Shown here piece after piece: positions 3,665-51,572 of a DNA stretch of 64,000 nt (positions within the stretch are counted from its first letter, which is position 1; every line of letters begins with the position of its first letter). The stretch is from an uncultured Clostridia bacterium (lineage in GTDB: Bacteria > Bacillota > Clostridia > Christensenellales > Borkfalkiaceae), in contig CANQFA010000005.1 in NCBI GenBank assembly GCA_947597925.1, positions 1 through 64,000 of the forward strand, in the 5' to 3' direction. Both the position numbers and the translations under genes were made by a program. Below the pieces are notes generated by a model. That model was not told the DNA's origin. It saw nothing but the letters and a program-made list of their open reading frames with translations, and did no database searches.

Positions 3665-6600
3665 TCATGCGAGAGAGACTCTGTCGGACACCGAGCGCAC
3701 GAAGAGCCCCTTCTCCTCGCCGTATGCGACGCATTCGCGCAGGAAGGCGGCAAAGCGCTCGTTCATGCGGATGTCCTTCCACTCCCCCGCGACGACGGCC
3801 GCGAGTTCGTCCATATAGAGCGCCACGCGGTCCTCGAGCGCCCCCTTGATGAGGGAGACCACCTCGTAGACCGTGAAGTCCTCCTCGCTCCTGCGGAGGG
3901 CGGGGCCCTCCTCCACGCGGTATCTGCCGAGAAGGATGGCCTTTTGATTCTTATAGAAATAGTCGGTGCCGCACACGCGGTCGCGCTCGAAGGCACAGCC
4001 GTCGATGAGGGCGTCGAGGCGGGCATCTACCCTGCTCCCCGTCTTGGGGATGCCGAAGGTCGCAAGACACCTCTTCCTGAGGAAGGCGCGCGAGATGGGC
4101 TCCTCTGCCGCCACGATCTCCTTGAGCCGCGCCATGATCTCTCCGTCGTGCTCCCCTCCCGTGACGAAGACGGCCGTCTCCGAGGCGGTCGGCTTGACCG
4201 ACTTGTAGGGCTTGCGGTATTTCGCCAGCCTGTCCGCCTTGCCCGCCGTCCCCGTGAGGCGGTCGAGGAAGTCCTTGATGCGCTTGAGCTCGCGCTTGGG
4301 GTTGTTGTAGTAGTTGACGCAGTTGACGCGGATGATATTCCAGTTCCCCCGCTTGAGGGTCTGCAGCTGGAGGATATTGCGGTCCTTGACCGAGAAGATG
4401 TCGGTGCCGTCGGTGATGATGCCGAGCAGGAAGCGGTGGCGGTTCTTGGGGTCGATGACCGCGACGTCGATCTTGAAGTCGGAGACGCCCACGCCCACGC
4501 GGCAGTCATAGCCGTAGCCCGAGAGCTCATCGGCGATATACCGCCCGATCCCCTCCTCGAGATGGACGGCGTCGGTGCGGGGTGCGAGCATGGTCCTGCC
4601 CTTTTCGGCGAACTCGAGGAAGGCCTTTAGCCCGGCGACGCCCTTCGAAGAGGTCTTGGCAAGGTCGATCATGGGCGAGGTCATGGTGGAGAAGACGAGC
4701 ATCTCCTCCCTTGCACGCGACACGGCGACATTGAGCCGCCTCCAGCCGCCCGCCTGGTTGAGGGGGCCGAAGTTGAGGGAGACCCGCCCGTTGCGGTCGG
4801 GACCGTAGCACACGGAGAAGAGGATGACGTCGCGCTCATCGCCCTGCACATTCTCGAGGTTCTTGACGAAGAGAGGCTCCTCGCGGTCATAGGCCGCGCT
4901 GTCGAGCTTTCTCGCCACGATCTCCTTGGTGAGCATGCGTTCGATGTCGTCGCGCTGTCCGCTCGAGAAGGTGACGATGCCCATGCTCGAGCGGGAGAGG
5001 ACGGGGTCGGAGAGCCGCCGCACGACTTCCCGCACGAGGGCCTCTGCCTCCGCCCTGTTCTTCTTGGTGAATCCCCTGTCGTATACGCCGTCGACGAGCA
5101 CGAGCTTTACCTTGCTCTCGAGGGCATCGGGCGAAGGGAAGGTGCACAGGCGGTTGTCATAATACATGCTGTTCGAGAAGGCGATGAGGCTCTCATGCTT
5201 GGAGCGGTAGTGCCACCTGAGGTGCCGCTCGGGCATGCCGAGGGCGAGGCAGTCGTCGAGCACGCTCTCGAGGTCCTCGTTTTCGAGGTTGTCCTCGTCC
5301 ACATAGGATGCGTGGAAGAAGGAGGTGGGCGGGAGCTGCTTGGGGTCGCCGACCACGACGGCCGCCTTTGCACGGGCAATGGAGCCCACCGCCTCCGCCG
5401 TAGACATCTGCGAGGCCTCGTCGAAGATCACGAGGTCGAATTCGTCCGCCACGGGACGGAGGTACTGCGCCACCGTCGTGGGGCTCATGAGGAGGCAGGG
5501 ACAGAGCACGCCCACGAGGGTGGGGATCTCTCCGAGCAGGTTGCGGATGCCCGACCCGCGCAGGTTGGTCTTGGAGAGGCGGGTAAAGGCGGAGAGTTCC
5601 AGCGAGAGCGAGCCGTCGTCCTCGGGTGCGGGAAGGCGGGAGATGAGCAGATTTCTGAGATACTCCCGCGTCACCTTGGTATAGTCCTCCCATGCGAGGC
5701 GGAACTTCTCCACCGTCTCGTCAAAGGTGCCCACCGTCATGCGCGAGAGCGCGGGATCGGCGGGGATATTGATCTCGAGGAAATTCTTGTAGACGTTCTT
5801 CTCGAAGCCCGCGAGGACGTTCTCTATCTTGAGCCGTCCGCTCTCGAGGGCGTCGGTGATGAAGGTGAGCCCATACCCCTCGAGCTTCTTGGCGGTCGCG
5901 CGGTACATGCACCAGTTGGGCAGCATGTCCACGTTGTCGATGAGGGAAGAGGCCTTCGTGGAGAAGTAGTCCAAGACGTCTTCGTCGCGCAATTTGCTGC
6001 GGTCCGCCTGCGTCACGGTGAGGAAGCTCTCCTCCGCCGCGAAATAGCTCTCCGCCGCCTTCAGGTAGCCCTCGAGTACGGGCATGGTATAGCCGTTTGC
6101 TGCGCGGATGCACATTCCGTTAAATGCATCTGCATTGTAGTCGAGGAAGGTCGCGGCGCAGAGCGCGTGGAGGGAATTGAGCCCCTCCAGAAACTCCGCA
6201 CGCCGCTTGAAGACGATATTTCCCGCGCGGTCGCAGAAGGACTTCGAGAGGGTCGTGGAGGAGGTGATCCTGCGGATGGCGCCGTCGATGTCGATGACGG
6301 TCTGCAAAAACTTGGGCACGTCGTCGTCCGAGATCTCGTGCAGGGCGACGCGGGAGAGCCGCTTCACCATCGCCTTCGCGCCCTTGAAGAGCCGCCAGTC
6401 CCCGCCCATCTCGAGATAGCGGGCGATATCCGCGCATCCGTCGAGGTCGACGAGAGTTTTGAAGTGCTTGTAGTAGTAGGCGAGGCAGGTGTCGAGGCGG
6501 CGGTTGGCATTGAAGAAGGTATAGAAGGCGTCCTCCTTCACGCCCGTGAAATATTTGGCATATTTGCCCGAGGCGAGCCCGCGGGCGATCTCGGAGAGAT

Positions 6601-9259
6601 TTCTGAGCTTCTTGCGGGTGATCGCCGAGACGCGCTGGCGGTAAAACTCGAGGAAGAGGCCCAAGAAGGACTTCAGGTGCTTGATCTCGGTGAGGATGAC
6701 CTCCGAGGCGCAGAACACGCGGTCGCGGAGCTCCTGTGAGTACTCCGAGAGGTAGACATTTTCAAAGGGCGAATTGAAGACGCCACCGCACTCCTTCGCC
6801 GCCGCCGCGGCCGTGAGGATCATGCTCCTGCACTCCGAGAGCTTCTTCTCGGTGAGGGTATCGTAAAAGGAGCTCTCGATGTCGAGCACGTCGGGGGCAT
6901 TCTTATTCTTGAGATAGCCGAGGATGGCGCCGTAGACGGAGATACCCAGCCTCCTCTTCCTGTGCAGGGCGGTCATGGGCTCTTTCAACTCTTCGCGGAG
7001 GGCGACGAGTTCGCGCGACCGCTCGCCGAAGGAGACCTCCTTCTGCGTGCCCGCGAGGGCGAGGGTCTCCTCCATGCGGCGGAGGACGCCCGCCTTGTCC
7101 GTCTTCCCCGAGTGGAGCTCGAGGCAAAATTCGCCGATGCCGATGCGGTCGAGGCGCTTCTTTACGACGTCGAGCGCCGCCTTCTTTTCGGCGACGAAGA
7201 GCACCCGCTTGCCCTGTGCGAGTGCATTGGCGATGATATTGGTGATGGTCTGGCTCTTGCCCGTTCCGGGAGGGCCGTGGAGCACAAAGGAGGCACCCGT
7301 GCCCGCAAGTGCTATGGCGGAAAACTGTGAACTGTCCGCCGAGAGAGGCAGGAGCACCTCTTCCGGATCGGCGGTGTCCTCCTCCGCGGTATAGGCCGTC
7401 TTCTCGGCGTGTCCCTCGAAGAGGGCGCTCACGGTGGCATTCTTCTTGAATTCGTCGATATGGAGCCGCACGTCGTTCCAGAGTAGGAAGGTCTGGAAGG
7501 AGAAGGTGGCGAGGTAGACGTCCTGCGTGAGCTCCCATCCCTTCATGGCGGCCGTCTCGGCGCGCACCATGGCGATGATCTCGGAGATCTTGAGGGCAGA
7601 GACGTCCCCTCCCAGCCCGCGGATATCGATATTGAATTCCTGCTTCAGAAATTCGAGCAGGGTCGCATTGACGAAGTACCCCTCTTCGCCGAGGGAGACC
7701 GAAAAGGACTCATTGCCCTTCGCCCGCGCGAGACCCACGGGGGCGAGAACGACGGGAGCATACTTGGGCCGGCCGTCTTCCTTGGAGATGTATTTCAAAA
7801 ATCCGAGGGCGAGATAGAGGATCTTCGCGCCCGATTCCTCCACCGCCTCCCTGTTCTTGCGGAGGAGCTTCGTGGCGGTCTCCTGTGCCGAGCGGGCGCT
7901 CTCGAGGGCGCGCAGCACCCCCTTTTCCCGCTCGAGGGCGGCGAGGTCGCGCTTCTGCTGGGAGACTTCGGCGCCGAAGGGCGCGCCCTCCTGCCCGTCT
8001 GCCTTGAGGCTCATCTCCTCCTTTGCGGAGAGGGCGGCATACAGCCCGTCGGGATCGCTCTCGGCGAGGTGCAGGGCATTTTTCCCCGTGAAGTTGAGGA
8101 GGGTATTTTTGGAGGTGAGGTCCAGAAGGCGCCTCTCCCACTGCTTGTTGCGGGGCTGTTTGCCGTCGAGCTTGAGATCGCGGAAGACGGGAAGGGGCGC
8201 GGGAGCATTCTCCGCGGACATCTCCTCCTCGTGGTAGATCTCGTAGCCCTTGAGACCCTTGCCGCGCATCGGGCAGACGGCGATCCCCCCCATGCGGCAG
8301 CGCTTGATGTCGACGAAGATCTCATAGAGCCCCGCCTCGAGCTTCTGGCGGAAGTGATTTTCGGAGGGCGTATACCCCACACTCTTGTCGAGAAAGAGGT
8401 CCTCCGTGTCGAAAAAGCTCAGGTTGTTGATGCCGTCCGAGATATAGCGCGCCACGATGTCGGCATCGTCAAAGGCCGAGTCGAGGAAACAGCTGTCGTA
8501 GAGCCACACGCCCACGCCGACATAGTTCCTGCCGAGCGCGAGCACGGGATGCAGGTGCACCGCCTCGAGGCAGGCCGCCACGAAGACGGCGAGTTCGAAG
8601 GGCGTCGCCTTCTTCTCCTTGAGGATGGACCCCTCGCGCACCGCCGAGGCGGGCGAGCAGAGGTCGGGCTCCTCGTCGTGTTCGATGCCGACCGCCTTCA
8701 CCGAGGCATAGATGGCGGCGATGATCCGCCGCACCGTATTCTTATCCGTCCCCGTGTAGCCGTAGAATTCGGCGTCTTCCTTCCACTTCTTGAGCCGCTT
8801 GCCCGCCTCTTGCAGGATGACGGAGGTATCCGCCGTGCGGGGACGCACAAAGGCGGCGATGCGCTCTGCATTGCCCGTGAGCCCCTCCCAGGTATCGAAG
8901 GGGAGCACCGTCACCTGCGCGGACGCCGAGGCGGTCTCCTTCCCCGCGATGAGCACGGAGACATTCACCGTGACGAGGCGGGTCTCGTCGCATTCGGCGA
9001 GATAGAGGGGCGAGAAGAGCTGCTCCGCCTCCACGAGCACGGCGCTCTCATAGGGCACCTCCACTTCCTTTTCAAAGGGGATGATGAGCCCCTCTCCGCA
9101 GGAGATCTTTACGGTGAGCGTGACCGCCTCTTCGAAATGATTTTTTATCTGTACGCCTGCGGGCGTCTGCAGAAAATAGTCGGTATAGCCCACGAACTTC
9201 GGGAAGCGAAGCTCGAGCGCTACCTTTTCGCTCGTAAACTTTCTCTTTCTGGCTGCCAT
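3665..9259 (-). CDS. DUF4011-type superfamily 1 helicase (Hhe-like)
   Basis: A 1,864-residue DNA/RNA helicase. The N-terminal part (about 1-560) includes the DUF4011-like region with WERRLLDLTSKNTLLNF. Walker A GPPGTGKSQT is near residue 660 and Walker B DEASQM near 1278. C-terminal superfamily 1 motifs follow (NVAVSRAREEM), then a Vsr/MTES_1575-like nuclease-fold region (DFKIDVAVIDP, then GIITDG). The second acidic residue often seen in that fold (GIECDG) is not evident, so nuclease activity is uncertain. The start at 9259 follows AGGAGGA; an in-frame start at 9328 has no such site. Similar DUF4011-helicase-Vsr proteins have been reported as antiphage systems. The gene stands alone with its own promoter. 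Confidence 0.85.
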   Translation of the reverse strand: MAARKRKFTSEKVALELRFPKFVGYTDYFLQTPAGVQIKNHFEEAVTLTVKISCGEGLIIPFEKEVEVPYESAVLVEAEQLFSPLYLAECDETRLVTVNVSVLIAGKETASASAQVTVLPFDTWEGLTGNAERIAAFVRPRTADTSVILQEAGKRLKKWKEDAEFYGYTGTDKNTVRRIIAAIYASVKAVGIEHDEEPDLCSPASAVREGSILKEKKATPFELAVFVAACLEAVHLHPVLALGRNYVGVGVWLYDSCFLDSAFDDADIVARYISDGINNLSFFDTEDLFLDKSVGYTPSENHFRQKLEAGLYEIFVDIKRCRMGGIAVCPMRGKGLKGYEIYHEEEMSAENAPAPLPVFRDLKLDGKQPRNKQWERRLLDLTSKNTLLNFTGKNALHLAESDPDGLYAALSAKEEMSLKADGQEGAPFGAEVSQQKRDLAALEREKGVLRALESARSAQETATKLLRKNREAVEESGAKILYLALGFLKYISKEDGRPKYAPVVLAPVGLARAKGNESFSVSLGEEGYFVNATLLEFLKQEFNIDIRGLGGDVSALKISEIIAMVRAETAAMKGWELTQDVYLATFSFQTFLLWNDVRLHIDEFKKNATVSALFEGHAEKTAYTAEEDTADPEEVLLPLSADSSQFSAIALAGTGASFVLHGPPGTGKSQTITNIIANALAQGKRVLFVAEKKAALDVVKKRLDRIGIGEFCLELHSGKTDKAGVLRRMEETLALAGTQKEVSFGERSRELVALREELKEPMTALHRKRRLGISVYGAILGYLKNKNAPDVLDIESSFYDTLTEKKLSECRSMILTAAAAAKECGGVFNSPFENVYLSEYSQELRDRVFCASEVILTEIKHLKSFLGLFLEFYRQRVSAITRKKLRNLSEIARGLASGKYAKYFTGVKEDAFYTFFNANRRLDTCLAYYYKHFKTLVDLDGCADIARYLEMGGDWRLFKGAKAMVKRLSRVALHEISDDDVPKFLQTVIDIDGAIRRITSSTTLSKSFCDRAGNIVFKRRAEFLEGLNSLHALCAATFLDYNADAFNGMCIRAANGYTMPVLEGYLKAAESYFAAEESFLTVTQADRSKLRDEDVLDYFSTKASSLIDNVDMLPNWCMYRATAKKLEGYGLTFITDALESGRLKIENVLAGFEKNVYKNFLEINIPADPALSRMTVGTFDETVEKFRLAWEDYTKVTREYLRNLLISRLPAPEDDGSLSLELSAFTRLSKTNLRGSGIRNLLGEIPTLVGVLCPCLLMSPTTVAQYLRPVADEFDLVIFDEASQMSTAEAVGSIARAKAAVVVGDPKQLPPTSFFHASYVDEDNLENEDLESVLDDCLALGMPERHLRWHYRSKHESLIAFSNSMYYDNRLCTFPSPDALESKVKLVLVDGVYDRGFTKKNRAEAEALVREVVRRLSDPVLSRSSMGIVTFSSGQRDDIERMLTKEIVARKLDSAAYDREEPLFVKNLENVQGDERDVILFSVCYGPDRNGRVSLNFGPLNQAGGWRRLNVAVSRAREEMLVFSTMTSPMIDLAKTSSKGVAGLKAFLEFAEKGRTMLAPRTDAVHLEEGIGRYIADELSGYGYDCRVGVGVSDFKIDVAVIDPKNRHRFLLGIITDGTDIFSVKDRNILQLQTLKRGNWNIIRVNCVNYYNNPKRELKRIKDFLDRLTGTAGKADRLAKYRKPYKSVKPTASETAVFVTGGEHDGEIMARLKEIVAAEEPISRAFLRKRCLATFGIPKTGSRVDARLDALIDGCAFERDRVCGTDYFYKNQKAILLGRYRVEEGPALRRSEEDFTVYEVVSLIKGALEDRVALYMDELAAVVAGEWKDIRMNERFAAFLRECVAYGEEKGLFVRSVSDRVSLA

Positions 9260-39402: not shown

Positions 39403-40152
39403 TTATACCATATCTTCCAAAATCAATTTGTCCGCCACGAGGGCGATGAACTCGCTGTTGGTCGGCTTTTCGCTGCCGAGATAGACCCGCGCGCCGAAGA
39501 TGGCATTGATGGCGTCCACCCGCCCGCGGTTCCAGGCGACCTCGATGGCATGGCGGATGGCGCGCTCCACCTTGCTCGCGCTCGTCTCATACTTTTCCCC
39601 GATCACAGGATAGAGCTTTTTGGTCACACTGCCGAGCACCTTGGGGTCCTCGATCGCCATCTTGATGCCCTCTCTCAGATAGCCGTACCCCTTGATATGC
39701 GGCGGGATGCCGATGGAGATGAAGATATTCGTGATGCGCTCCTCCACGCTCCCCGCGCGCCTGCGCTCCACTCTCTCCCCGCGCGGCGAGGCCTCCCCGT
39801 CGAGTTCGGCCGCCCGCATCGCCACGAGTTCGGCCGAGACGGGCTTCATGAGATAGTACCGCGCGCCCAGCTCGATCGTCTTTGCGACGATGGAGTCTTC
39901 CGCATAGTTGCCGAGCACGATCACGCTCACCTTGCGCCCCGCCCGTCTGAGTTCCTCGAGCACGGTAAAGCCATCGGCCGTCCTGAGGTGCAGGCTGACG
40001 ATCGCCACGTTCGGAAGGAGCGCCTCTAAGAGTTTCAGCCCCTCTTTCCCGTCGCCCGTGACGCCGCACACCTCAAATCCCGCCTCCGCACACCGCGCTT
40101 CGAGCTCTTTCGCAAAATTTTCATTGCTCTCGAGAATCATAATGCGTTTCAT
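39403..40152 (-). CDS. spo0A: Spo0A-type sporulation regulator with degenerate receiver
   Basis: A 249-residue protein. The C-terminal DNA-binding domain is strongly Spo0A: IGIPPHIKGYGYLREGIKMA, SASKVERAIRHAIEVAW, GRVDAINAIFG and KPTNSEFIALVADKL. The receiver (1-115) is atypical. The acidic pocket is Glu8-Ser9, the phosphorylation site is Ser53 (VAIVSLHLRTADG) instead of Asp, and the Thr switch is Gly81. Only Lys103 (LMKP) remains. Phosphorelay control as in Bacillus would not work on this protein without another mechanism. SD TTTGGAGG precedes the ATG. A good promoter and an inverted pair of 0A boxes lie upstream, so autoregulation is likely. Confidence 0.96.
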   Translation of the reverse strand: MKRIMILESNENFAKELEARCAEAGFEVCGVTGDGKEGLKLLEALLPNVAIVSLHLRTADGFTVLEELRRAGRKVSVIVLGNYAEDSIVAKTIELGARYYLMKPVSAELVAMRAAELDGEASPRGERVERRRAGSVEERITNIFISIGIPPHIKGYGYLREGIKMAIEDPKVLGSVTKKLYPVIGEKYETSASKVERAIRHAIEVAWNRGRVDAINAIFGARVYLGSEKPTNSEFIALVADKLILEDMV

Positions 40153-40512: not shown

Positions 40513-40589
40513 TGAGGTGTAGCGCAGTTTGGTAGCGCGCTTGGTTAGGGACCAAGAGGTCGCGTGTTCAAGTCACGTCACCTCAACCA
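40513..40589 (+). tRNA. tRNA-Pro (anticodon AGG)
   Basis: Complete cloverleaf: acceptor TGAGGTG/CACCTCA, D-stem GCGC/GCGC, anticodon stem CTTGG/CCAAG, loop TTAGGGA, T-arm GCGTG-TTCAAGT-CACGT, encoded CCA. The loop is that of bacterial tRNA-Pro but position 34 (base 40547) is A rather than the usual T, G or C, giving AGG. A terminator follows at 40626-40656. Confidence 0.92.
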
Positions 40590-40706
40590 TCTTTCATTCA
40601 CCAAATGACTGTCGGTGAATAAAAAGAGCGAGATTATTCAAATCTCGCTTCTTTTTATGCAATTTAGCGCATAAAACATACAATTTATGCAGATTTTATA
40701 CGGTCA
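40588..40706 (+). repeat. Direct repeat copy A (119 bp), 3' of tRNA-Pro
   Basis: About 94% identical to copy B at 40959-41077. It begins inside the tRNA CCA and contains the inverted repeat ATTCACC/GGTGAAT and a terminator hairpin (GCGAGATT/AATCTCGC, then CTTTTT). Confidence 0.92.
40626..40656 (+). terminator. Terminator of the tRNA-Pro transcript
   Basis: GCGAGATT-ATTCA-AATCTCGC followed by TTCTTTTT. The same hairpin is repeated in copy B at about 40997-41027. Confidence 0.8.
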
Positions 40707-40958
40707 AAAAGTTGGACAAAAGTGTTTCATTTTATGACTGTCTTTTTGCCATTTTTGCTTTCCTGCCAGACTTGAACTGACGACATCTAATTTTTTTCAA
40801 AAAAATATACAAAAATATGATAGACTAATCGGACGAGCGTTGTATTACACGGCGGCTCGTTTTTTGTAAGAACGGGTAGTCGGCATAGAGTCGAGCAATT
40901 AGAATTTATCTTGTAACGCGAGAGAGGGGAGTAGGGCAGTCATTTGGTGAGTCAAAGA
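40707..40958. other. Non-coding spacer between tRNA-linked repeats
   Basis: No credible gene. It holds a terminator-like hairpin ACGAGC/GCTCGT with six T near 40837-40865. A minus-strand segment near 40759-40790 resembles a tRNA T-arm (GTCAG-TTCAAGT-CTGGC), possibly an old attachment-site remnant. A 28-bp element at 40932-40959 recurs at 41083-41110. Confidence 0.5.
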
Positions 40959-40959
40959 C
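40932..40959 (+). repeat. 28-bp direct repeat, copy 1
   Basis: Identical to 41083-41110; begins TAGGGCAGTCATTTGGTGAG. Its AGTCATTTGGTGA can pair with TCACCAAATGACT inside repeat copy B, forming a hairpin. Confidence 0.9.
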
Positions 40960-41077
40960 ATCTTTCATTCACCAAATGACTGTTGGTGAATAAAAAGAGC
41001 GAGATTATTCAAATCTCGCTTCTTTTTATGCAATTTAACACATAAAACATACTGTTTATGCAAGTTTTATACGGTCA
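40959..41077 (+). repeat. Direct repeat copy B (119 bp)
   Basis: Second copy of the sequence found immediately after tRNA-Pro, with about seven substitutions. It is bracketed by the two 28-bp repeats, as if a tRNA-adjacent segment had been duplicated during integration or excision of an element. Confidence 0.92.
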
Positions 41078-41082
41078 GACCT

Positions 41083-41110
41083 TAGGGCAGTCATTTGGTG
41101 AGTCAAAGAC
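41083..41110 (+). repeat. 28-bp direct repeat, copy 2
   Basis: Exact copy of 40932-40959. Followed by a terminator at 41111-41142. Confidence 0.9.
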
Positions 41111-41142
41111 AAAAATGCCGTAGAAGTATCTGCGGCATTTTT
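41111..41142. terminator. Bidirectional intrinsic terminator
   Basis: AAAAATGCCG and CGGCATTTTT arms around a 12-base loop. It marks the left edge of the accessory island. Confidence 0.85.
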
Positions 41143-42652: not shown

Positions 42653-42958
42653 TTAAACTTCGTGCGTTTTGATCCAAATGAGAAGATCCTCATACTTCAT
42701 TTCACTTTTGGCGAGAGAAAGCCCGATTTCAATGAGCTCCTCATCCGTCGCTTCCAAAGAGATGCCGTTGACTTCGAGGAAGGTCAAAAGCACATAAACG
42801 CCGATGCGCTTGTTTCCGTCCACAAAGGCATGGTTGGAGACGAGCCCCGCACAGAGCCTTGCCGCCTTTTCCTCTTTCGTGGGGAAGAGGTCTTTTCCGT
42901 CGAAGGTCATATAGGGGGCTTCGAGTGCAGATTCCAATAAGCCGACATCGCGGTGCAT
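42653..42958 (-). CDS. Doc-type Fic protein, N-terminally truncated
   Basis: A 101-residue Doc/death-on-curing protein carrying the Fic motif NHAFVDGNKRIGV, which in Doc toxins phosphorylates EF-Tu. Full-length relatives are about 125 residues and begin some 25 residues before the segment RDVGLLESALEAP. Here the frame upstream of MHRDVGLL reads into a stop at 43004-43006 without the usual N-terminus. No Phd-like antitoxin gene precedes it. It is probably an inactivated remnant, though the catalytic loop is intact. The weak start (no clear ribosome binding site) agrees with that. Confidence 0.75.
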   Translation of the reverse strand: MHRDVGLLESALEAPYMTFDGKDLFPTKEEKAARLCAGLVSNHAFVDGNKRIGVYVLLTFLEVNGISLEATDEELIEIGLSLAKSEMKYEDLLIWIKTHEV

Positions 42959-43126: not shown

Positions 43127-43155
43127 TTGACAAGCCTGATGAGACTTGCTATAAT
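43127..43155 (+). promoter_or_regulatory. Consensus promoter of the RiPP-like cassette
   Basis: TTGACA (43127-43132), 17 bp, TATAAT (43150-43155): a perfect sigma-A consensus. Six bases later starts the inverted repeat CACAAGCA-AGA-TGCTTGTG (43161-43179), a possible operator or leader hairpin. Confidence 0.9.
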
Positions 43156-43160
43156 GTAAC

Positions 43161-43179
43161 CACAAGCAAGATGCTTGTG
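43161..43179. promoter_or_regulatory. Inverted repeat at the cassette transcription start
   Basis: CACAAGCA, loop AGA, TGCTTGTG: perfect 8-bp arms at +1 of the promoter. A repressor binding here would block initiation. Confidence 0.6.
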
Positions 43180-43215
43180 ATCTTAATTAAAATGTCTTAT
43201 TGAGGAGCCAAAAAG

Positions 43216-43635
43216 ATGAATTGGACGGAAAAGTACGAGGAATTTCTTCACTATTCCAAAGAAGACCTTCTGAAGTTCGGCTGCGAGACCGGATCGAAAT
43301 TGATTTCTTTAATGGATAAAAAGTATGGAGATCAAGATAAATCCTTCGCGGTATTCATGAAAATCTATGGGACATTTGTGGCCATAGACCTGGATGTAAA
43401 GCAGGAAGAATATGAGATGTTTGAAAGGATAAGCGGAGTGTCGGCATCGTATAATGAGTTCAAGGATGCGGTAAAGCAGGCCTATAACTTTGATGTGGTC
43501 ACTGAGGTTGACAACCTTGTGGATGCCGACGATGAGATGAAGGAATTAGTGATCCGTTTGGGGCTTATAATTTGCGCGTATGACGGCGAGATAAGTGCCG
43601 AGGAGAAAGCATTGATCGAAAGATATTGGAATTGA
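43216..43635 (+). CDS. TerB-like helical protein, first gene of the cassette
   Basis: A 139-residue soluble, largely helical, acidic protein. The segments VAIDLDVKQEEYEMFERI and IICAYDGEISAEEKALIERY resemble the two metal-binding helical repeats of TerB-fold proteins (Asp then Glu on a following helix), but the match is by eye. The start follows GAGGAG. It is read from a perfect consensus promoter, and 64 bases separate it from the repeat-peptide gene, with no terminator between them. A link to the radical SAM cassette is inferred from this arrangement. AT-richer than the flanking chromosome. Confidence 0.7.
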   Translation: MNWTEKYEEFLHYSKEDLLKFGCETGSKLISLMDKKYGDQDKSFAVFMKIYGTFVAIDLDVKQEEYEMFERISGVSASYNEFKDAVKQAYNFDVVTEVDNLVDADDEMKELVIRLGLIICAYDGEISAEEKALIERYWN

Positions 43636-43699
43636 CGATATCGACAAAAAGGGCCGTTTTTGCGAAAAACAGTGCTACAAAATTTCAGTGAGGTAAGAA

Positions 43700-43870
43700 A
43701 TGAAAAAATTGATCTGCAATGTATTTGATGATAATGATTTTGAGGACAGACCGCGCGAAACAGTATCAATGTCCAGTTGTCGTGGTTGGTCCAGAATTCG
43801 GTTTAACGTTGTAAAAATGTCCAGTTGTCGTGGTTGGTGCAAAATTGCATTATATGCAGCCAAATTTTGA
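43700..43870 (+). CDS. Putative RiPP precursor peptide with two MSSCRGW repeats
   Basis: A 56-residue peptide. A leader-like N-terminus (1-23, MKKLICNVFDDNDFEDRPRE) is followed by two tandem 16-residue units: MSSCRGWSRIRFNVVK (24-39) and MSSCRGWCKIALYAAK (40-55), then Phe56. The first seven residues of each unit are identical, coded by an exact 21-base repeat at 43769-43789 and 43817-43837. Ribosome binding site GAGGTAA is 6 bases before the ATG. The stop lies 12 bases before a radical SAM/SPASM gene with its own GGTGA site. The Cys-Arg-Gly-Trp core is a plausible target for a radical crosslink. I do not recognise the family. Confidence 0.8.
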   Translation: MKKLICNVFDDNDFEDRPRETVSMSSCRGWSRIRFNVVKMSSCRGWCKIALYAAKF

Positions 43871-43882
43871 CGGTGACTGTAT

Positions 43883-45157
43883 ATGAGAGTGCTGCTGTAT
43901 CCTCCTTATTTGCAGTGGGAAGTAATTTCCGATTGTAATCACAAGTGCATACATTGTTATAACTATTGGCGCGCTCATAATATACCTGTAGAAAACTGTA
44001 CGGAATTTGAAGCCATAACAGATGCGATCATCGAACGAAAGCCTCTTTATGTCGCCATCACCGGCGGAGAACCGCTTCTGGTCTTTCCGAAAGTCAAAGA
44101 GTCCATCATAAAGATGACAGATGCGGGGATCGTTTGTTCCATATCAACGAATGGGACGCTGATAACCGAAGAAATCGCTCGATTCTTAGAAGAGCGGAAA
44201 GTGGATCTGGTGATTTCGCTGCCGTCAATCGATGAAAAGATATGCGATGCGGTGTGCACGGCAAAAAATGTCGTAAAAAAGTTATCTGACGTGTGGCCTT
44301 TGTTAAAGAGTCACAATATACAGACCAACATCAATGTTGTCGTAAACAAGTTGAATATATCAACATTATACCAAACGTTGCAAGCGATCAAGGAACTTGG
44401 TTTTATTGCTCGCGTGGGTGTAGCACAGCGTCCGATCAATGCCTCTGCAGAATATTCTGAATATGAGTTGGACAAGAGTGATTTCCGGTTTATTGTAAGC
44501 GAATGTATCAGGGCGAAAAAGGAACTGGGGCTCTCGTTGGATTTTTCGGTTTGTCTCCCTGACTGCGCATTCAGAGATTTGCGGGAATTAGATGAACTGG
44601 AAAAGGGTGATTGTTTCGCGGGGACTATCGCATATGCGATTTGCACAAATGGCGATGTAAAGGCTTGTCAGTGCGATACACGCGTCTACGGCAATATTCT
44701 AACAGATGATTTCGGCGAAATCTACCGAAGAATGGCCGAATGGCGCGATGGGAGCTATTTGCCGAAAGAGTGTAAGGGCTGTAGCAGATTGTCAACATGC
44801 CGAGGCGGTTGCAGAGTCGAATCATATGCAAACGAAAATAGCTATCGTGCTTTACCGTCGTTTGCAGATCCGAACAATGTTCCCGAGATTGTAGAAAACG
44901 ACGTGGTTGATTATTCTGACGTCAAAGAAATTGCTGTGGCGCCGCAAGCGATTTTTTTGAAAGATAAAGAATGTTATCGTGTTTCAGTTGGAATTGTTGC
45001 TATGTATCTACATGACGAATTCGCCGAATGGTTGCAGGAGAATTCCAAATTTAGTTTCGAACAACTGCGTCAAGCGACCGAATTGGAGAGCGATGAACTA
45101 AATGTGGTGATAGACACGCTTTGCAAGAACGGCATTCTTGTTGCGCGTCAGGTATAG
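43883..45157 (+). CDS. Radical SAM/SPASM peptide maturase
   Basis: A 424-residue enzyme. The radical SAM cluster motif is Cys18-x3-Cys22-x2-Cys25 (DCNHKCIHC), with the SAM-binding GGEP at 61-64. A SPASM domain for auxiliary Fe-S clusters spans about 244-310 (Cys244, 254, 262, 264, 297, 300, 306, 310). The last 70 residues (FLKDKECYRVSVG to VIDTLCKNGILVA) look like a winged-helix, PqqD/RRE-like peptide-binding domain. It follows the repeat-peptide gene by 12 bases, the usual layout for RiPP precursor and maturase. It probably forms bonds within the SCRGW units. No exporter or protease gene is adjacent. Confidence 0.9.
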   Translation: MRVLLYPPYLQWEVISDCNHKCIHCYNYWRAHNIPVENCTEFEAITDAIIERKPLYVAITGGEPLLVFPKVKESIIKMTDAGIVCSISTNGTLITEEIARFLEERKVDLVISLPSIDEKICDAVCTAKNVVKKLSDVWPLLKSHNIQTNINVVVNKLNISTLYQTLQAIKELGFIARVGVAQRPINASAEYSEYELDKSDFRFIVSECIRAKKELGLSLDFSVCLPDCAFRDLRELDELEKGDCFAGTIAYAICTNGDVKACQCDTRVYGNILTDDFGEIYRRMAEWRDGSYLPKECKGCSRLSTCRGGCRVESYANENSYRALPSFADPNNVPEIVENDVVDYSDVKEIAVAPQAIFLKDKECYRVSVGIVAMYLHDEFAEWLQENSKFSFEQLRQATELESDELNVVIDTLCKNGILVARQV

Positions 45158-45172
45158 CAATGAAGCTCTGCC

Positions 45173-45304
45173 ATGGTAGCATATTTTCTTTTGTGGCCTC
45201 CCTGCGGGGGGGACGGAGAATCCGGAATTACGATTGTTGGCGAAACAACGGAATCGCTTGATTGTTTACATTGTTTGTTGAGTGCGTTATTGAGGATACT
45301 GTAG
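45173..45304 (+). CDS. Possible small ORF after the maturase (43 residues)
   Basis: MVAYFLLWPPCGGDGESGIT, continuing to SLDCLHCLLSALLRIL. It starts 15 bases after the radical SAM stop, before the cassette terminator, and holds a Cys-x2-Cys. There is no clear ribosome binding site. It could be a second small peptide of the cassette or chance; evidence is weak. Confidence 0.3.
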   Translation: MVAYFLLWPPCGGDGESGITIVGETTESLDCLHCLLSALLRIL

Positions 45305-45326
45305 AACTTAACTTTCAAACGATGAG

Positions 45327-45361
45327 GACGCTGGGATGAATTCATTCAAGCGTCTTTTTAT
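45327..45361 (+). terminator. Intrinsic terminator of the RiPP-like cassette
   Basis: GACGCT (45327-45332) and AGCGTC (45349-45354) enclose the self-complementary ATGAATTCAT, followed by TTTTTATTT. Confidence 0.75.
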
Positions 45362-45514: not shown

Positions 45515-45543
45515 TTGACATCTGCGTGCGAGCGTGGTATAAT
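45515..45543 (+). promoter_or_regulatory. Perfect consensus promoter
   Basis: TTGACA (45515-45520), 17 bp, TATAAT (45538-45543). Drives the uncharacterised gene at 45605 and probably the phosphoesterase after it. It marks return to GC-rich sequence. Confidence 0.9.
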
Positions 45544-45604
45544 GGGCTTTACTATAGCTATACCATAGACGCGCGGGAGGGCGCGGACGTTCTCGGAGGG
45601 TACC

Positions 45605-46054
45605 ATGTCCACGATTGAAGCGACAAATCTCATCTATTCCTATTTCCTTCTCATGGGGCATCAGCCGCAGCTGAGCCTCGGGATCGAGCACGACGAAGAG
45701 GGCAAGCCCCATGTGCAGGTCCAGATCGACGTCGACCTTCTCGCCTCTCCCGCCTCAAGGATCGCGCCCCTCTCCTTTTTCTACGCGCTCGACGACGAAA
45801 AACTCAATCTCTCTGTCATCTTCTTCATGAAAAGGGGCCTGACCGAGGGCGAGATCTCGCGCCTTCGCGCCCTTCATGCAGCGGAGAAATGCCCGTTTTC
45901 CTCGCTCATCGAGGTCGGTGAGGGGGCCGAAGTCCATCTCTTCCGCGACATGCCCGTGGAGGACTTCCACGAAGGATCTCTCGAGCGGGTGCACGACTAT
46001 TTCTGCGAACGGGGCGCCCTGCTCGAGACCCTCATCGAGCTCTCGAAGAGATGA
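45605..46054 (+). CDS. Uncharacterised cytoplasmic protein
   Basis: A 149-residue protein with no signal peptide or membrane segment. It has predicted alternating strands and helices (GKPHVQVQIDVDLLA, LNLSVIFFMKRGLTEGEISRL) and an acidic C-terminal helix. I do not recognise a family. Ribosome binding site GGAGGG and a perfect consensus promoter 62 bases upstream suggest strong expression. The metallophosphoesterase gene begins 76 bases after its stop, without a terminator between. Confidence 0.75.
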   Translation: MSTIEATNLIYSYFLLMGHQPQLSLGIEHDEEGKPHVQVQIDVDLLASPASRIAPLSFFYALDDEKLNLSVIFFMKRGLTEGEISRLRALHAAEKCPFSSLIEVGEGAEVHLFRDMPVEDFHEGSLERVHDYFCERGALLETLIELSKR

Positions 46055-47070: not shown

Positions 47071-50000
47071 ATGAAGCCGACAGACGACCTGTCAAAACTT
47101 ACGATCGAAGAACTCAAGCGCATCTACAAGGAGGAGAATGTCTCCGAAGCACTGAAGGCCCTCTTAAGTGAGATTGGCCGTGCGGAGCACGACAGGGCCG
47201 AAGCCGACGAGGAGGCGCACATCCGCGAAGTCACCTCGATGGACCTTCCCATGGATTGGGAAAATTCCTTCGAGGCGGATGCGCGGGCGAGGGGAGTGCA
47301 TGCGGACAGCCCCGCAGATGCGCTCGTCCTCTCTCTCCTCACGCTCGGGAAGGTGGATATCGAGTTCATCGCCGCCATCACGGGAGAGGACTGCAAGGCG
47401 GTCATCGGCGCGCTCAGGGGTTCCATCTACCAAAATCCCGAGACCTGGGAGGAGTGTTTCTATAAGGGCTGGGAGACGGCAGATGAGTATCTCTCGGGCA
47501 ATCTCCGCCGCAAGCGCCGCGTGGCTGAGCAGGCAAACGAGGCCTATCGCGGCTATTTTGCCGACAATCTCGCCGCGATCGACGGCGTCCTGCCCGCCGC
47601 CGTTCCCTCGGGGGATATCTTCGTGACGCTCGGCTCCTCGTGGGTGCCGCCCGATATCATCGACAGCTTCATTTCCTATCTCATGTCCGCGCCCTACGAG
47701 GGGACCATCCACGACGAGGTGACGGGCACGTGGGAGATCCCGAATCGGTCCGCCCTCCGCTACCGTGTCGCCTCTGTGAGCAAGTACGGCACCCTGCGCA
47801 TGCCCGCACTCACCATCATCGAGCGCACCCTCAATATGAAGGACGTGTACGTGACCGATGAGGCGGCGGCGCCTTCTTCCAAGTTGGGCAAGAAGCGCGT
47901 CGTCAACAAGGGCGATACCGTCGCGGCGGTGGAGAAGCAGGAGCTCATCGTGCGCGAATTCAAGAGCTGGGTCTGGCGGGACAAAGGGCGGAAGGAGCGC
48001 CTCGTCTCCATCTTCGAGGACAAGTTCGGCTGTGTCAGACAGCGCCGTTTCGACGGCTCCTTCCTGCACTTCCCGGGCATGGCGGAGGACGTGCACCTCT
48101 ATCCCTATCAAAAGGACGCGGTCGCGCGCATCATCTTCACGCCAAATACCCTTCTGGCGCACGATGTGGGCGCGGGCAAGACCTATGTCATGGTCGCCGC
48201 GGGCATGGAGCTCAGGCGCATGGGGCTCTCCGCAAAGAATCTCTATGTCGTGCCCAATAATCTCGTGGGGCAGTGGAAGGATATCTTCCTCGACATGTAT
48301 CCCCGCGCCCGTCTCCTCTGCATCGAGCCGAGAGTCTTCGGCCCGGGGCGGCGGAACGGCGTCCTGCGGGAGGTGCAGAGCGGGGACTACGACGGCATCA
48401 TAATCGCATACAGCTGTTTCGAACAGATCCCGCTCTCGCTCGAGTTTCACAGACAGCAATTGCGCGAGCTCTCCGCCGAGGCAGACCGCGCGGCAAAGGA
48501 GGGGGGCGCGACCTCCCGCCTCATCAAGCGTCAGAAAGATCTCAAGAAGAAGCTCGATGAGCTCGATACGCTTGAAGCGCTCGGCGGCACCATGGCGCGG
48601 AAAGAAGTCTGCTTCGACGAGCTGGGCATCACGCGCCTCTTCGTGGACGAAGCGCACAACTTCAAGAATGTCCCCGTGGAGACCAAGGTGGATTCCGTGC
48701 TCGGCATCGGCGCCTCGGGGTCCAAGAAGTGCAAGGACATGATGGACAAGGTGCACTTCGTCCAGCGGCAGAACAGCGGGAGAGGGGTCGTCTTCGCGAC
48801 GGGGACGCCCATCACCAACTCCCTCACCGATGCCTTTGTCATGCAGCAATATCTCCAGAGCGGCGAACTCGCCATGCTCGGCCTGCAGAATTTCGACAGC
48901 TGGATCGGGACCTTCGCCGAGCGCGTGACCGATTTTGAGGTGGATGTCGACACGAGCAGCTATCGCCTCGCCACCCGCTTTGCACGCTTCCATAACCTCC
49001 CCGAACTCACCGCTCTCCTCTCCTCCATCGCCGATTTCCACGGCGCGGAAGGGGAAGACGACATCCCCCGAACGGACGGCTATCAGGACGAAGTCATTCC
49101 CCAGACGGAGGAGTTTGCGGAGTATCTCCGCGAGATCTCCCGCCGTGCCGACGAGGTGCGCGCGGGCAATGTGAGCCGCAAGGACGACAACCTCCTGAAG
49201 ATCACGACGGACGGCAGAAAGGCGGCCCTCGATTTCCGCCTCGTGTGTCCCTCTGCGGGCTTTACCTATCGTTCCAAAGTCGCGCGGTGCGTGGAAAAGG
49301 TGACGGAGATCTACTTCGGGACGGAGCGATTTCTCCGCACACAGGTCATCTTTTGCGACATCTCCACCCCCAAGGAGAGCTTCAATCTCTACAGCGAGAT
49401 CCGCGAGATGCTCGTCGCGCGCGGGGTGAGGCGGGAGGAGATCGCCTTCGTGCATGAGGCCGACACCGAACAAAAGCGCGAGGCCCTCTTTGCCAAGGTC
49501 CGCGCGGGGGAGGTGCGCGTGCTGCTCGGGTCTACCTTTAAGCTCGGGCTGGGCGTCAATATCCAGGACCGCCTCATCGCGGTGCACCACCTCGACGTGC
49601 CGTGGCGGCCCGCCGACATGATCCAGCGCGAGGGGCGCATTCTGCGGCCCGGCAATCTCAACTCGCGCGTCTTCATCTTCCGCTATATCACGGAGGGGAG
49701 CTTCGACGCCTACTCGTGGCAGCTCCTCGAGACCAAGGCGCGCTTTATCGCGGAGCTCCTCTCGGGGTCGCTCACGGAGCGGAGCGGCTCGGATATCGAT
49801 GAGATAGTCTTAAGCTATGCCGAGGTCAAGGCACTCGCCATCGGCAATCCGCTCGTCAAGGAGCGCGTGGAGACGGCCAATGAGCTCGCGCGCTATATCA
49901 CCCTCCAGCGCAAGACGACGGAGGCGCGCATGCGGCTCGAACAGGAGCGCGCAGCCATCCCCGCCCAGATAGCGAGGGATGAAAAGCTCGCCGTCGAGTG

Positions 50001-50460
50001 CGAGGCAGATGCCGAAGTCTGCCTCAGATCTGCGGGGGAGAAGACCGACCTCACCTCGAAGGAGGCGGCCGAGAAGAGAAGGCTCCTTCGCGAGGCACTC
50101 GACATCGCCCGCGGTGACAGCTCCTTCGGCGAGGAGCTCGTGCTCTTCGAATACCGCGGCTTTGAGATCGTCTGTCCCGCCGAGCAGATCCCGGGCAAGC
50201 CCCGCGTCTTTGTGCGCGGGACGGGCCTGTACCCCGTGGACCTCGGCGAGACGGAGATCGGCAATTTCGTCCGCGTGGACAACTTCATCGACTCCATCCC
50301 CGACCGTGCCGTCTGCCTGAGGGAGGCGGTCGAGGAGCTCAAGCGGCGGGCCGTGGAGATCGACGCCGAGCTCGCAAAGCGGGAAGATTACGCGGAGAAG
50401 ATCGAGACCTACCGCCGCCGTCTCGAAATTCTGGATAAAAAATTGGGAGTGAAGAAATGA
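47071..50460 (+). CDS. SNF2-type DNA helicase/translocase
   Basis: A 1,129-residue superfamily 2 protein. The N-terminal 330 residues are of unknown type (phage/ICE helicase-like proteins have a methylase-associated region here, but I see no methylase motif). The helicase core has motif I DVGAGKTYV near 366, motif II LFVDEAHNFKN near 520, motif III FATGTPITNSL near 572 and motif VI QREGRILRPGN near 851. A coiled-coil C-terminus (about 930-1129) ends in charged helices. The stop overlaps the MoxR start (ATGA). The coupling to MoxR and VWA genes suggests a DNA-remodelling conflict or repair system rather than a lone helicase. Confidence 0.9.
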   Translation: MKPTDDLSKLTIEELKRIYKEENVSEALKALLSEIGRAEHDRAEADEEAHIREVTSMDLPMDWENSFEADARARGVHADSPADALVLSLLTLGKVDIEFIAAITGEDCKAVIGALRGSIYQNPETWEECFYKGWETADEYLSGNLRRKRRVAEQANEAYRGYFADNLAAIDGVLPAAVPSGDIFVTLGSSWVPPDIIDSFISYLMSAPYEGTIHDEVTGTWEIPNRSALRYRVASVSKYGTLRMPALTIIERTLNMKDVYVTDEAAAPSSKLGKKRVVNKGDTVAAVEKQELIVREFKSWVWRDKGRKERLVSIFEDKFGCVRQRRFDGSFLHFPGMAEDVHLYPYQKDAVARIIFTPNTLLAHDVGAGKTYVMVAAGMELRRMGLSAKNLYVVPNNLVGQWKDIFLDMYPRARLLCIEPRVFGPGRRNGVLREVQSGDYDGIIIAYSCFEQIPLSLEFHRQQLRELSAEADRAAKEGGATSRLIKRQKDLKKKLDELDTLEALGGTMARKEVCFDELGITRLFVDEAHNFKNVPVETKVDSVLGIGASGSKKCKDMMDKVHFVQRQNSGRGVVFATGTPITNSLTDAFVMQQYLQSGELAMLGLQNFDSWIGTFAERVTDFEVDVDTSSYRLATRFARFHNLPELTALLSSIADFHGAEGEDDIPRTDGYQDEVIPQTEEFAEYLREISRRADEVRAGNVSRKDDNLLKITTDGRKAALDFRLVCPSAGFTYRSKVARCVEKVTEIYFGTERFLRTQVIFCDISTPKESFNLYSEIREMLVARGVRREEIAFVHEADTEQKREALFAKVRAGEVRVLLGSTFKLGLGVNIQDRLIAVHHLDVPWRPADMIQREGRILRPGNLNSRVFIFRYITEGSFDAYSWQLLETKARFIAELLSGSLTERSGSDIDEIVLSYAEVKALAIGNPLVKERVETANELARYITLQRKTTEARMRLEQERAAIPAQIARDEKLAVECEADAEVCLRSAGEKTDLTSKEAAEKRRLLREALDIARGDSSFGEELVLFEYRGFEIVCPAEQIPGKPRVFVRGTGLYPVDLGETEIGNFVRVDNFIDSIPDRAVCLREAVEELKRRAVEIDAELAKREDYAEKIETYRRRLEILDKKLGVKK

Positions 50461-51572
50461 GCGAACTGAAGATGACCAATATCCCCTCCATGCCCGTGGG
50501 CAAACTCATCGACATCCTTACGGACATGTATGCCGCCGTCATCGGAAAGGGGCCCATGAGCGCCCTGCCCTCCGTCATGCTGTGGGGCCCGCCCGGCGTG
50601 GGTAAATCGCAGGCCGTCCGTGAGGTCGCCGAGCGTCTCGCCGAGCGCACGAAAAAGAGGGTCTCCGTGACCGACGTGCGCCTACTTCTCTTCAATCCCA
50701 TCGACCTCCGCGGCATTCCCACCGCCAATGCGGAGAAGACGCTCGCGGTCTGGCTCAAGCCCAAGATCTTCGACATGGATGGGGGAGACGACGTCATCAA
50801 CTTCCTCTTCCTCGACGAGATCACCGCGGCACCCCAGTCGGTACAGGCGGCGGCATATCAGATCACCCTCGACAGGGTGGTGGGGGAGCACCGCCTTCCC
50901 GACAACTGCATCGTCATCGCCGCGGGCAACCGCATGACGGACAAGTCGGTCACCTACCGCATGCCGAAGGCCCTCGCGAACCGCCTCATGCACTTCGAGG
51001 CGGAGGGCAGCTTCGACTCGTGGCGGGAATGGGCGGTCGGGAAGGGGATCCACCCCAAGGTCCTCGGCTTTCTCGCCTTCCGCAGAGATCTCCTCATGGC
51101 CTTCGACCCCGCGACGGAGGACGTCGCCTTCCCCACGCCGCGTGCATGGGAGCGGGTGAGCGACATCTTGAACAGGGTGGGCGACGATCTCGAGGAGGTC
51201 TATCCCTATATTGCGGGCCTCGTGGGGACGGGTGCCGCCATCGAGCTGCGCACCTGGGAAAAGGTCTACCGCACCCTTCCCTCGGTTGAGGACATCTTCC
51301 GCGGAAAGATGCCGCCCGTGCCCAAGGGGACGGATGCGCTCTATGCCCTCGTCGCCTCCATGACCGCCTATGCGCGGGAGCACAGGGGAGAGCTCGACCT
51401 CATCGCGAACTCCATCGTCTACGCCGAGAAGCTCCCGCCCGACTTCTCCGTGGTGCTCCTCAAGGACTACATGGCGCTCGAGAAGGGCTATCTCGAGAAG
51501 CTTATGAAGATCCCCGCCTTTCTTCGCTGGCTCTCCGCCAAAGGAAGTCTTCTGAATGGCACTTTCCGCTGA
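50457..51572 (+). CDS. MoxR-family AAA+ ATPase
   Basis: A 371-residue AAA+ chaperone-like ATPase. Walker A GPPGVGKSQ is near residue 43 and Walker B FLFLDEITAA near 117. A sensor-like segment NCIVIAAGNRMTD follows, and arginine residues lie near PKALANRLMHFE. MoxR proteins act with von Willebrand A-domain partners to assemble or remodel complexes. It overlaps the helicase stop by 4 bases and the VWA start by 17, so all three are translationally coupled. Confidence 0.93.
   Translation: MSELKMTNIPSMPVGKLIDILTDMYAAVIGKGPMSALPSVMLWGPPGVGKSQAVREVAERLAERTKKRVSVTDVRLLLFNPIDLRGIPTANAEKTLAVWLKPKIFDMDGGDDVINFLFLDEITAAPQSVQAAAYQITLDRVVGEHRLPDNCIVIAAGNRMTDKSVTYRMPKALANRLMHFEAEGSFDSWREWAVGKGIHPKVLGFLAFRRDLLMAFDPATEDVAFPTPRAWERVSDILNRVGDDLEEVYPYIAGLVGTGAAIELRTWEKVYRTLPSVEDIFRGKMPPVPKGTDALYALVASMTAYAREHRGELDLIANSIVYAEKLPPDFSVVLLKDYMALEKGYLEKLMKIPAFLRWLSAKGSLLNGTFR

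Follow-up and report, generated by a model that had tools for sequence, protein, structure and literature searches.

A two-gene cassette that very probably directs formation of a ribosomally synthesized and posttranslationally modified peptide (RiPP) was found in a stretch of 64,000 nucleotides (the window) from contig CANQFA010000005.1 of an uncultured Clostridia bacterium (assembly GCA_947597925.1). The cassette consists of an open reading frame (ORF) for a 56-residue precursor peptide in which SSCRGW occurs twice and an ORF for a 424-residue radical S-adenosylmethionine (SAM)/SPASM maturase. This assignment, which covers the pair of precursor and maturase and not the bond that is formed, is well supported because the pair recurs, the core is conserved, and the enzyme has a SPASM-like catalytic part together with a predicted C-terminal RiPP recognition element (RRE). 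Judged from sequence, the SCRGW pair looks like a real, so far undescribed type of modified peptide. In the proposed pathway, the N-terminal leader of the precursor, with its hydrophobic LICNV motif, would be bound by the C-terminal RRE, as the predicted fold and a common leader motif suggest. The radical SAM domain, with SPASM iron-sulfur clusters, would put a crosslink into each SSCRGW[SAC][RK]I unit, and leader removal and export would depend on proteins encoded elsewhere; by eye, no exporter or protease was recognized among the genes adjoining the cassette.

Scanning of genome contigs by exact short patterns produced 34 matches, of which 13 were relatives, located at 12 distinct loci. A truncated ORF of 57 residues (L014) and a match in the window's own genome (L002; 104 residues, 30%) were left out of the counts. 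The two closest enzymes, from metagenome-assembled genomes of Fretibacterium (L003, 56% identity) and Synergistales (L004, 59% identity), both belong to Synergistota, and in both loci a short ORF encoding SCRGW lies about 100 nucleotides upstream of the enzyme (a single unit in L003 and a pair in L004). The preliminary description of this DNA had staked its reading on such a peptide lying beside close homologues of the enzyme, and both of the closest homologues follow one. The SCRGW peptide was absent from the DNA examined at the other 10 of the 12 loci, and peptide profile A2, searched in the 12 genomes of L003 to L014, gave clear matches only in the L003 and L004 genomes, with six more at E values of ≥0.08. 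Flanking genes, read by eye, differ among the loci (L003 has a feoB-like gene to one side; L004 is flanked by genes resembling those for AMP ligases and rpsB), and no ORF resembling the TerB-like ORF that precedes the peptide gene in the window was recognized at either. The conserved unit is therefore peptide plus enzyme, and the TerB-like ORF is perhaps outside the system.

Alignment of the five available units (two from the window, one from L003, and two from L004) gave the consensus [SN]-S-C-R-G-W-[SAC]-[RK]-I. In the window, SSCRGW occupies residues 25 to 30 and 41 to 46 of the peptide, and the underlying 36-nucleotide repeat (89% identity) has a spacing of 48 nucleotides, giving units of 16 residues. 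Two tandem 16-residue units beginning MSSCRGW had been described earlier; the repeat was borne out, and the leading Met proved not to be conserved (Tyr or Phe in L003 and L004). Differences between units were largely silent. The two L004 units differ by 7 nucleotides in seven codons, all synonymous, and unit 1 of the window differs from unit 1 of L004 by 9 nucleotides in seven codons, again all synonymous; in neither comparison was this equaled by any of 20,000 random-substitution simulations. Between window unit 1 and L004 unit 2, all six altered codons were synonymous. The signal was weaker for window unit 2 against the L004 units (five synonymous and two nonsynonymous codons), for units compared with L003 (three of six changed codons synonymous, P = 0.025 and P = 0.031; three of five for window unit 2), and between the two units of the window (neither of two differing codons synonymous). 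A chance ORF was ruled out for the peptide: relatives preserve the reading frame, and most codon differences are synonymous.

The maturase scored above the Pfam cutoff for Radical_SAM (58.7 versus 29.5 bits) and 0.1 bit under that for SPASM (21.4 versus 21.5 bits). Its CxxxCxxC motif was invariant in 12 of 12 aligned enzymes, as well as in the SCRGW trio and in 13 of 13 enzymes associated with C-x-C peptides, and the six Cys residues that follow fit CX12GX4C and CX2CX5CX3C, which we take to be the SPASM motif. No excess of Cys columns specific to the trio was found (three, versus one to five in other groups). By structural matching, the catalytic part resembles peptide-modifying SPASM enzymes, with SkfB and CteB among the best matches and SuiB tied for best. 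Residues 354 to 424, matched alone, retrieved mostly RiPP leader-binding domains; the C-terminal winged-helix-like domain noted earlier is predicted to be an RRE. Models of described families were matched under their cutoffs (AlbA, 46.8 of 850 bits; PapB, 56.2 of 340 bits with an E value of 3.2e-15; DynA, 41.7 of 450 bits). The StsB and YhhB models matched all 12 members of enzyme alignment A1 (judged by E value only; best values, 7.5e-22 and 5.9e-15, respectively). Assignment to a viperin or other defense system was rejected, as PADLOC viperin matches span residues 11 to 166 only and the protein also carries SPASM and RRE-like portions.

Seventeen full-length enzymes (window, L003 to L013, L046, L047, L050, L051, and L052) were examined for nearby precursors, which were found for 16: three SCRGW peptides and 13 Cys-rich short ORFs. 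Near the remaining enzyme, in L006, no Cys-rich short ORF was seen, and by eye it adjoins other biosynthesis-like genes. The Cys-rich peptide lies directly downstream of the enzyme in 12 of the 13 sister loci; in L010 it precedes the enzyme by about 0.9 kb, and a further ORF intervenes. All 13 sister precursors contain 5 to 9 Cys residues, and 10 contain at least two C-x-C motifs (one in L011, L051, and L052). Across 11 loci, short ORFs with at least two C-x-C motifs made up 10 of 110 near the enzyme versus 5 of 1,282 elsewhere; two of the former are antisense, and one of the latter is the L010 peptide. The SCRGW core looks derived within this wider family, with leader and RRE kept and the core changed, because the nearest sister precursors have the same leader motif as the SCRGW peptides (a motif picked post hoc). 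Several other genes were observed at sister loci. A putative HExxH metallopeptidase, by eye a candidate leader protease, faces the Cys-rich peptide in L005 (positions 7681 to 8202, minus strand) and L007 (1928 to 2647, minus strand). Similar-looking ORFs of 242 to 246 residues follow the CYCHCACACH peptide in L009 (7524 to 8258; no Pfam match for this copy), L012 (7560 to 8288), and L013 (4642 to 5382). Downstream of the L007 cassette (4140 to 7323), two adjoining serine recombinase-like genes, recognized by eye, suggest mobility.

The identity of the bond is less firmly indicated than the pair. A thioether that ties the invariant Cys to some conserved residue close by is given about an even chance and is favored over a cyclophane; it is the parsimonious choice because all 16 precursor cores contain Cys and few of the sisters contain Trp (3 of 13). 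The invariant Cys in all five SCRGW units is compatible with a thioether, no more. Weighing against a thioether, the same five units place an invariant Trp two positions before Arg or Lys, with Ser, Ala, or Cys between, an arrangement of aromatic residue and acceptor that would suit a three-residue cyclophane joining the Trp indole to a Lys or Arg side-chain carbon, with Cys serving for recognition only. In PMC9055067, homologues of DarE take WNWx(K/R)xF cores as substrates, and crosslinking of the Arg variant WNWSRSF is described; PMC11002830 has XncB joining Trp to Cβ of Arg or Asn at i+2; and SuiB, the streptide enzyme, which forms a Lys-Trp link, shares first place among the structural matches of the maturase. 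However, a cyclophane leaves the invariant S-C-R-G before Trp unexplained, would find any Trp at all in only the minority of sister precursors already mentioned, and draws little from the exchange of Arg and Lys, a common conservative change. We regard it as doubtful, about half as probable as the thioether; since it is a sub-case of the RiPP assignment, its probability overlaps with that of the assignment. What is left beside these two falls to both bonds together or to another chemistry. One specific form is improbable: a single enzyme closes two rings per unit, a thioether at Cys and a Trp-x-Lys/Arg cyclophane, to give repeated bicycles on one chain, and the clade arose when a C-x-C precursor exchanged its core but leader and C-terminal RRE stayed. 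The two-ring product proposed at the outset is not general, as the number of units varies (one in L003).

Two explanations would give the short ORF or its product another role. It is highly improbable that the ORF encodes not a substrate but an attenuator leader peptide controlling the enzyme gene. In favor of this reading, a stable hairpin with T-rich sequence after it separates peptide from enzyme in both L003 and L004 (z = −3.24 and −2.37, respectively). Against this, the gap in the window is just 12 nucleotides, too short for a hairpin of that type, the Cys-rich peptide of nearly all sister loci comes after the enzyme, and the enzyme has an RRE-like domain. The hairpin is equally consistent with expression of the enzyme below that of the precursor, an effect it may have in L003 and L004. 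The pair might also make an intracellular peptide-derived cofactor or redox carrier, comparable to pyrroloquinoline quinone or mycofactocin, and not a secreted peptide. The lack of a recognizable exporter or protease beside the cassette fits that idea, as does the mycofactocin maturase model, third among the NCBIfam matches of the enzyme (78.5 bits, cutoff 265). The sporadic distribution and the absence of an evident partner enzyme argue against it, and peptide-derived cofactors would not usually have tandem cores; we consider this role unlikely. A precursor and its RiPP maturase remain the preferred explanation of the pair.

Acquisition of the cassette by transfer, its direction left aside, is supported by composition and distribution. 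The G+C content is 0.38 for the peptide, 0.44 for the enzyme (0.46 at third codon positions [GC3]), and 0.42 for the TerB-like ORF, compared with 0.58 to 0.63 for five neighboring genes (GC3, 0.72 to 0.86) and 0.58 for the window; the enzymes of L004 and L003 have values of 0.40 and 0.46. The nearest enzymes are in Synergistota, and the Spo0A gene at 39403 to 40152 presumably marks a Bacillota host. The transfer proposed earlier from AT-rich composition is strengthened by these data. The window enzyme at 1e-30 matched in 1 of 101 host relatives. Searches with alignment A1 (1e-60, or 1e-50 for relatives of L008, L005, and L007) matched 1 of 103 genomes of the host genus (its own; 60 of these are ≥90% complete) and 1 of 398 sampled from the host phylum. 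Among relatives of the other loci, matches were found in 2 of 149 genomes for L004, 1 of 196 for L008, 1 of 196 for L006, 4 of 197 for L012, and 4 of 191 for L005, the same 4 being found in 192 relatives of L007; these genome searches added L046, L047, L050, L051, and L052. Among 101 genomes of the genus, only its own contained a neighboring gene for a 149-residue protein, so that an empty site was not readable.

With the window enzyme, none of nine IMG/VR stretches was a relative, whereas alignment A1 gave at least 17 loci in 600 IMG/VR stretches; the best E value among the matches listed was that of L016 (26% over 334 residues), the one IMG/VR locus checked for precursors, where no Cys-rich ORF passed the filter. 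A tblastn search of plasmids with the enzyme returned 47 records, all under 60% identity (20 of the 47 listed), and phage matches comprised four records (23.6 to 25%). The L007 enzyme had zero plasmid matches at 1e-20 and zero phage matches at 1e-10, and the TerB-like gene had zero plasmid or IMG/VR matches. Separately, directly after tRNA-Pro(agg), positions 40588 to 41111 contain two short elements resembling miniature inverted-repeat transposable elements, bounded by 22-nucleotide inverted repeats, and a 119-nucleotide direct repeat (94%), at the edge of an AT-rich stretch.

Features of the cassette are collected in Table 1.

Table 1. Features of the SCRGW cassette and its surroundings, in window coordinates
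Feature	Position	Strand	Basis
Sigma-70-type promoter, TTGACA-17-TATAAT	43127..43155	+	12/12 consensus match only
139-residue ORF, very weakly TerB-like	43216..43635	+	E 0.032, 14.9 bits versus cutoff of 24.4
Precursor peptide, 56 residues	43700..43870	+	ORF reading; homologues in L003 and L004
Leader motif LICNV (residues 4 to 8)	43709..43723	+	Common to nearest sister precursors; motif picked post hoc
Core unit 1, SSCRGWSRI (residues 25 to 33)	43772..43798	+	Repeat and homologue alignment
Core unit 2, SSCRGWCKI (residues 41 to 49)	43820..43846	+	Repeat and homologue alignment
Radical SAM/SPASM peptide maturase, 424 residues	43883..45157	+	ORF reading, profile and fold evidence
CxxxCxxC cluster motif (Cys 18, 22, 25)	43934..43957	+	Invariant across family enzymes
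SPASM Cys set (244, 262, 297, 300, 306, 310)	44612..44812	+	CX12GX4C and CX2CX5CX3C, invariant
RRE-like domain, C-terminal (residues 354 to 424)	44942..45154	+	Predicted fold
Terminator-like hairpin GACGCT/AGCGTC, then TTTTT	45327..45359	+	Read directly; not listed by scanner

The ribosome binding site reported for the 56-codon gene was read directly as GAGG 6 nucleotides ahead of ATG, and the reported spacing of 12 bases between the peptide stop and the enzyme ORF agrees with the coordinates. The promoter scan gave seven promoter-like sites versus 5.1 in shuffles, and two of the seven match at 12/12 positions. One begins at 43127, where the stretch singled out in the preliminary description also starts; that stretch ends (45361) just past the terminator-like hairpin. 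The TerB-like ORF, which that description does not mention, is the first gene 3′ of this promoter and lies between it and the peptide gene. The other 12/12 promoter lies directly 5′ of the 149-residue ORF, which has no Pfam match (45515 to 46054 for promoter and ORF together). A gene similar to DOC/Fic death-on-curing toxins is located at 42653 to 42958 on the minus strand (55.9 bits versus an NCBIfam cutoff of 38.65), and at 47071 to 51572 an SNF2-type helicase (1,129 residues), weakly similar to defense helicases such as DrmD, adjoins a MoxR-like AAA ATPase.

No literature report of SCRGW as a RiPP core was found, judged largely by titles and abstract openings from partial listings, in keeping with the original statement that no described family with this core was known. 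The one paper in which the string SCRGW was found deals, going by its title, with MHC peptide display. The findings suggest a radical SAM RiPP lineage that kept its leader and recognition domain while its core changed from C-x-C to SCRGW. The carriers of this peptide family, of which no description was found, now include Synergistota, a Bacillota host, Clostridia, and candidate-phyla bacteria. The findings also offer natural enzyme pairs for studying the choice of core chemistry; the system is very small, its units are short and repeated, and a mass readout would be simple.

The kinship with streptide, ranthipeptide, and sactipeptide systems put forward earlier holds by fold and by weak profile matches, and no closer; the other precursors of the family are Cys rich. 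Like the sactipeptide and ranthipeptide systems (SkfB, CteB, and PapB), the cassette pairs a radical SAM/SPASM maturase with a short Cys-bearing precursor, but its enzyme is far under the family cutoffs, its core is SCRGW, and its RRE is C-terminal, whereas the matching domain of CteB spans residues 2 to 69 and its catalytic part residues 88 to 426. With daropeptides, triceptides, and streptide (DarE, XncB, and SuiB) it shares Trp with Lys or Arg at +2 in each unit and, through SuiB, one of the fold matches tied for best; it differs in the invariant SCRG before Trp and in its low DynA score, and the streptide core, KxxxW in the portion of PMC13361665 available, is unlike SCRGW. The streptococcal subfamilies of radical SAM RiPPs are likewise small cassettes named after a core motif, and SCRGW is not among the 16 motifs given in that portion. 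Cluster 59 of PMC9062424, an "Asp-Cys" recombinase/radical SAM/peptide pathway, resembles the family in its minimal cassette and Cys-rich repeating peptide, as well as in the recombinase-like genes beside L007; SCRGW is unmentioned in the accessible sections of that paper. The C-x-C branch, compared with it by description only, may overlap this uncharacterized pathway.
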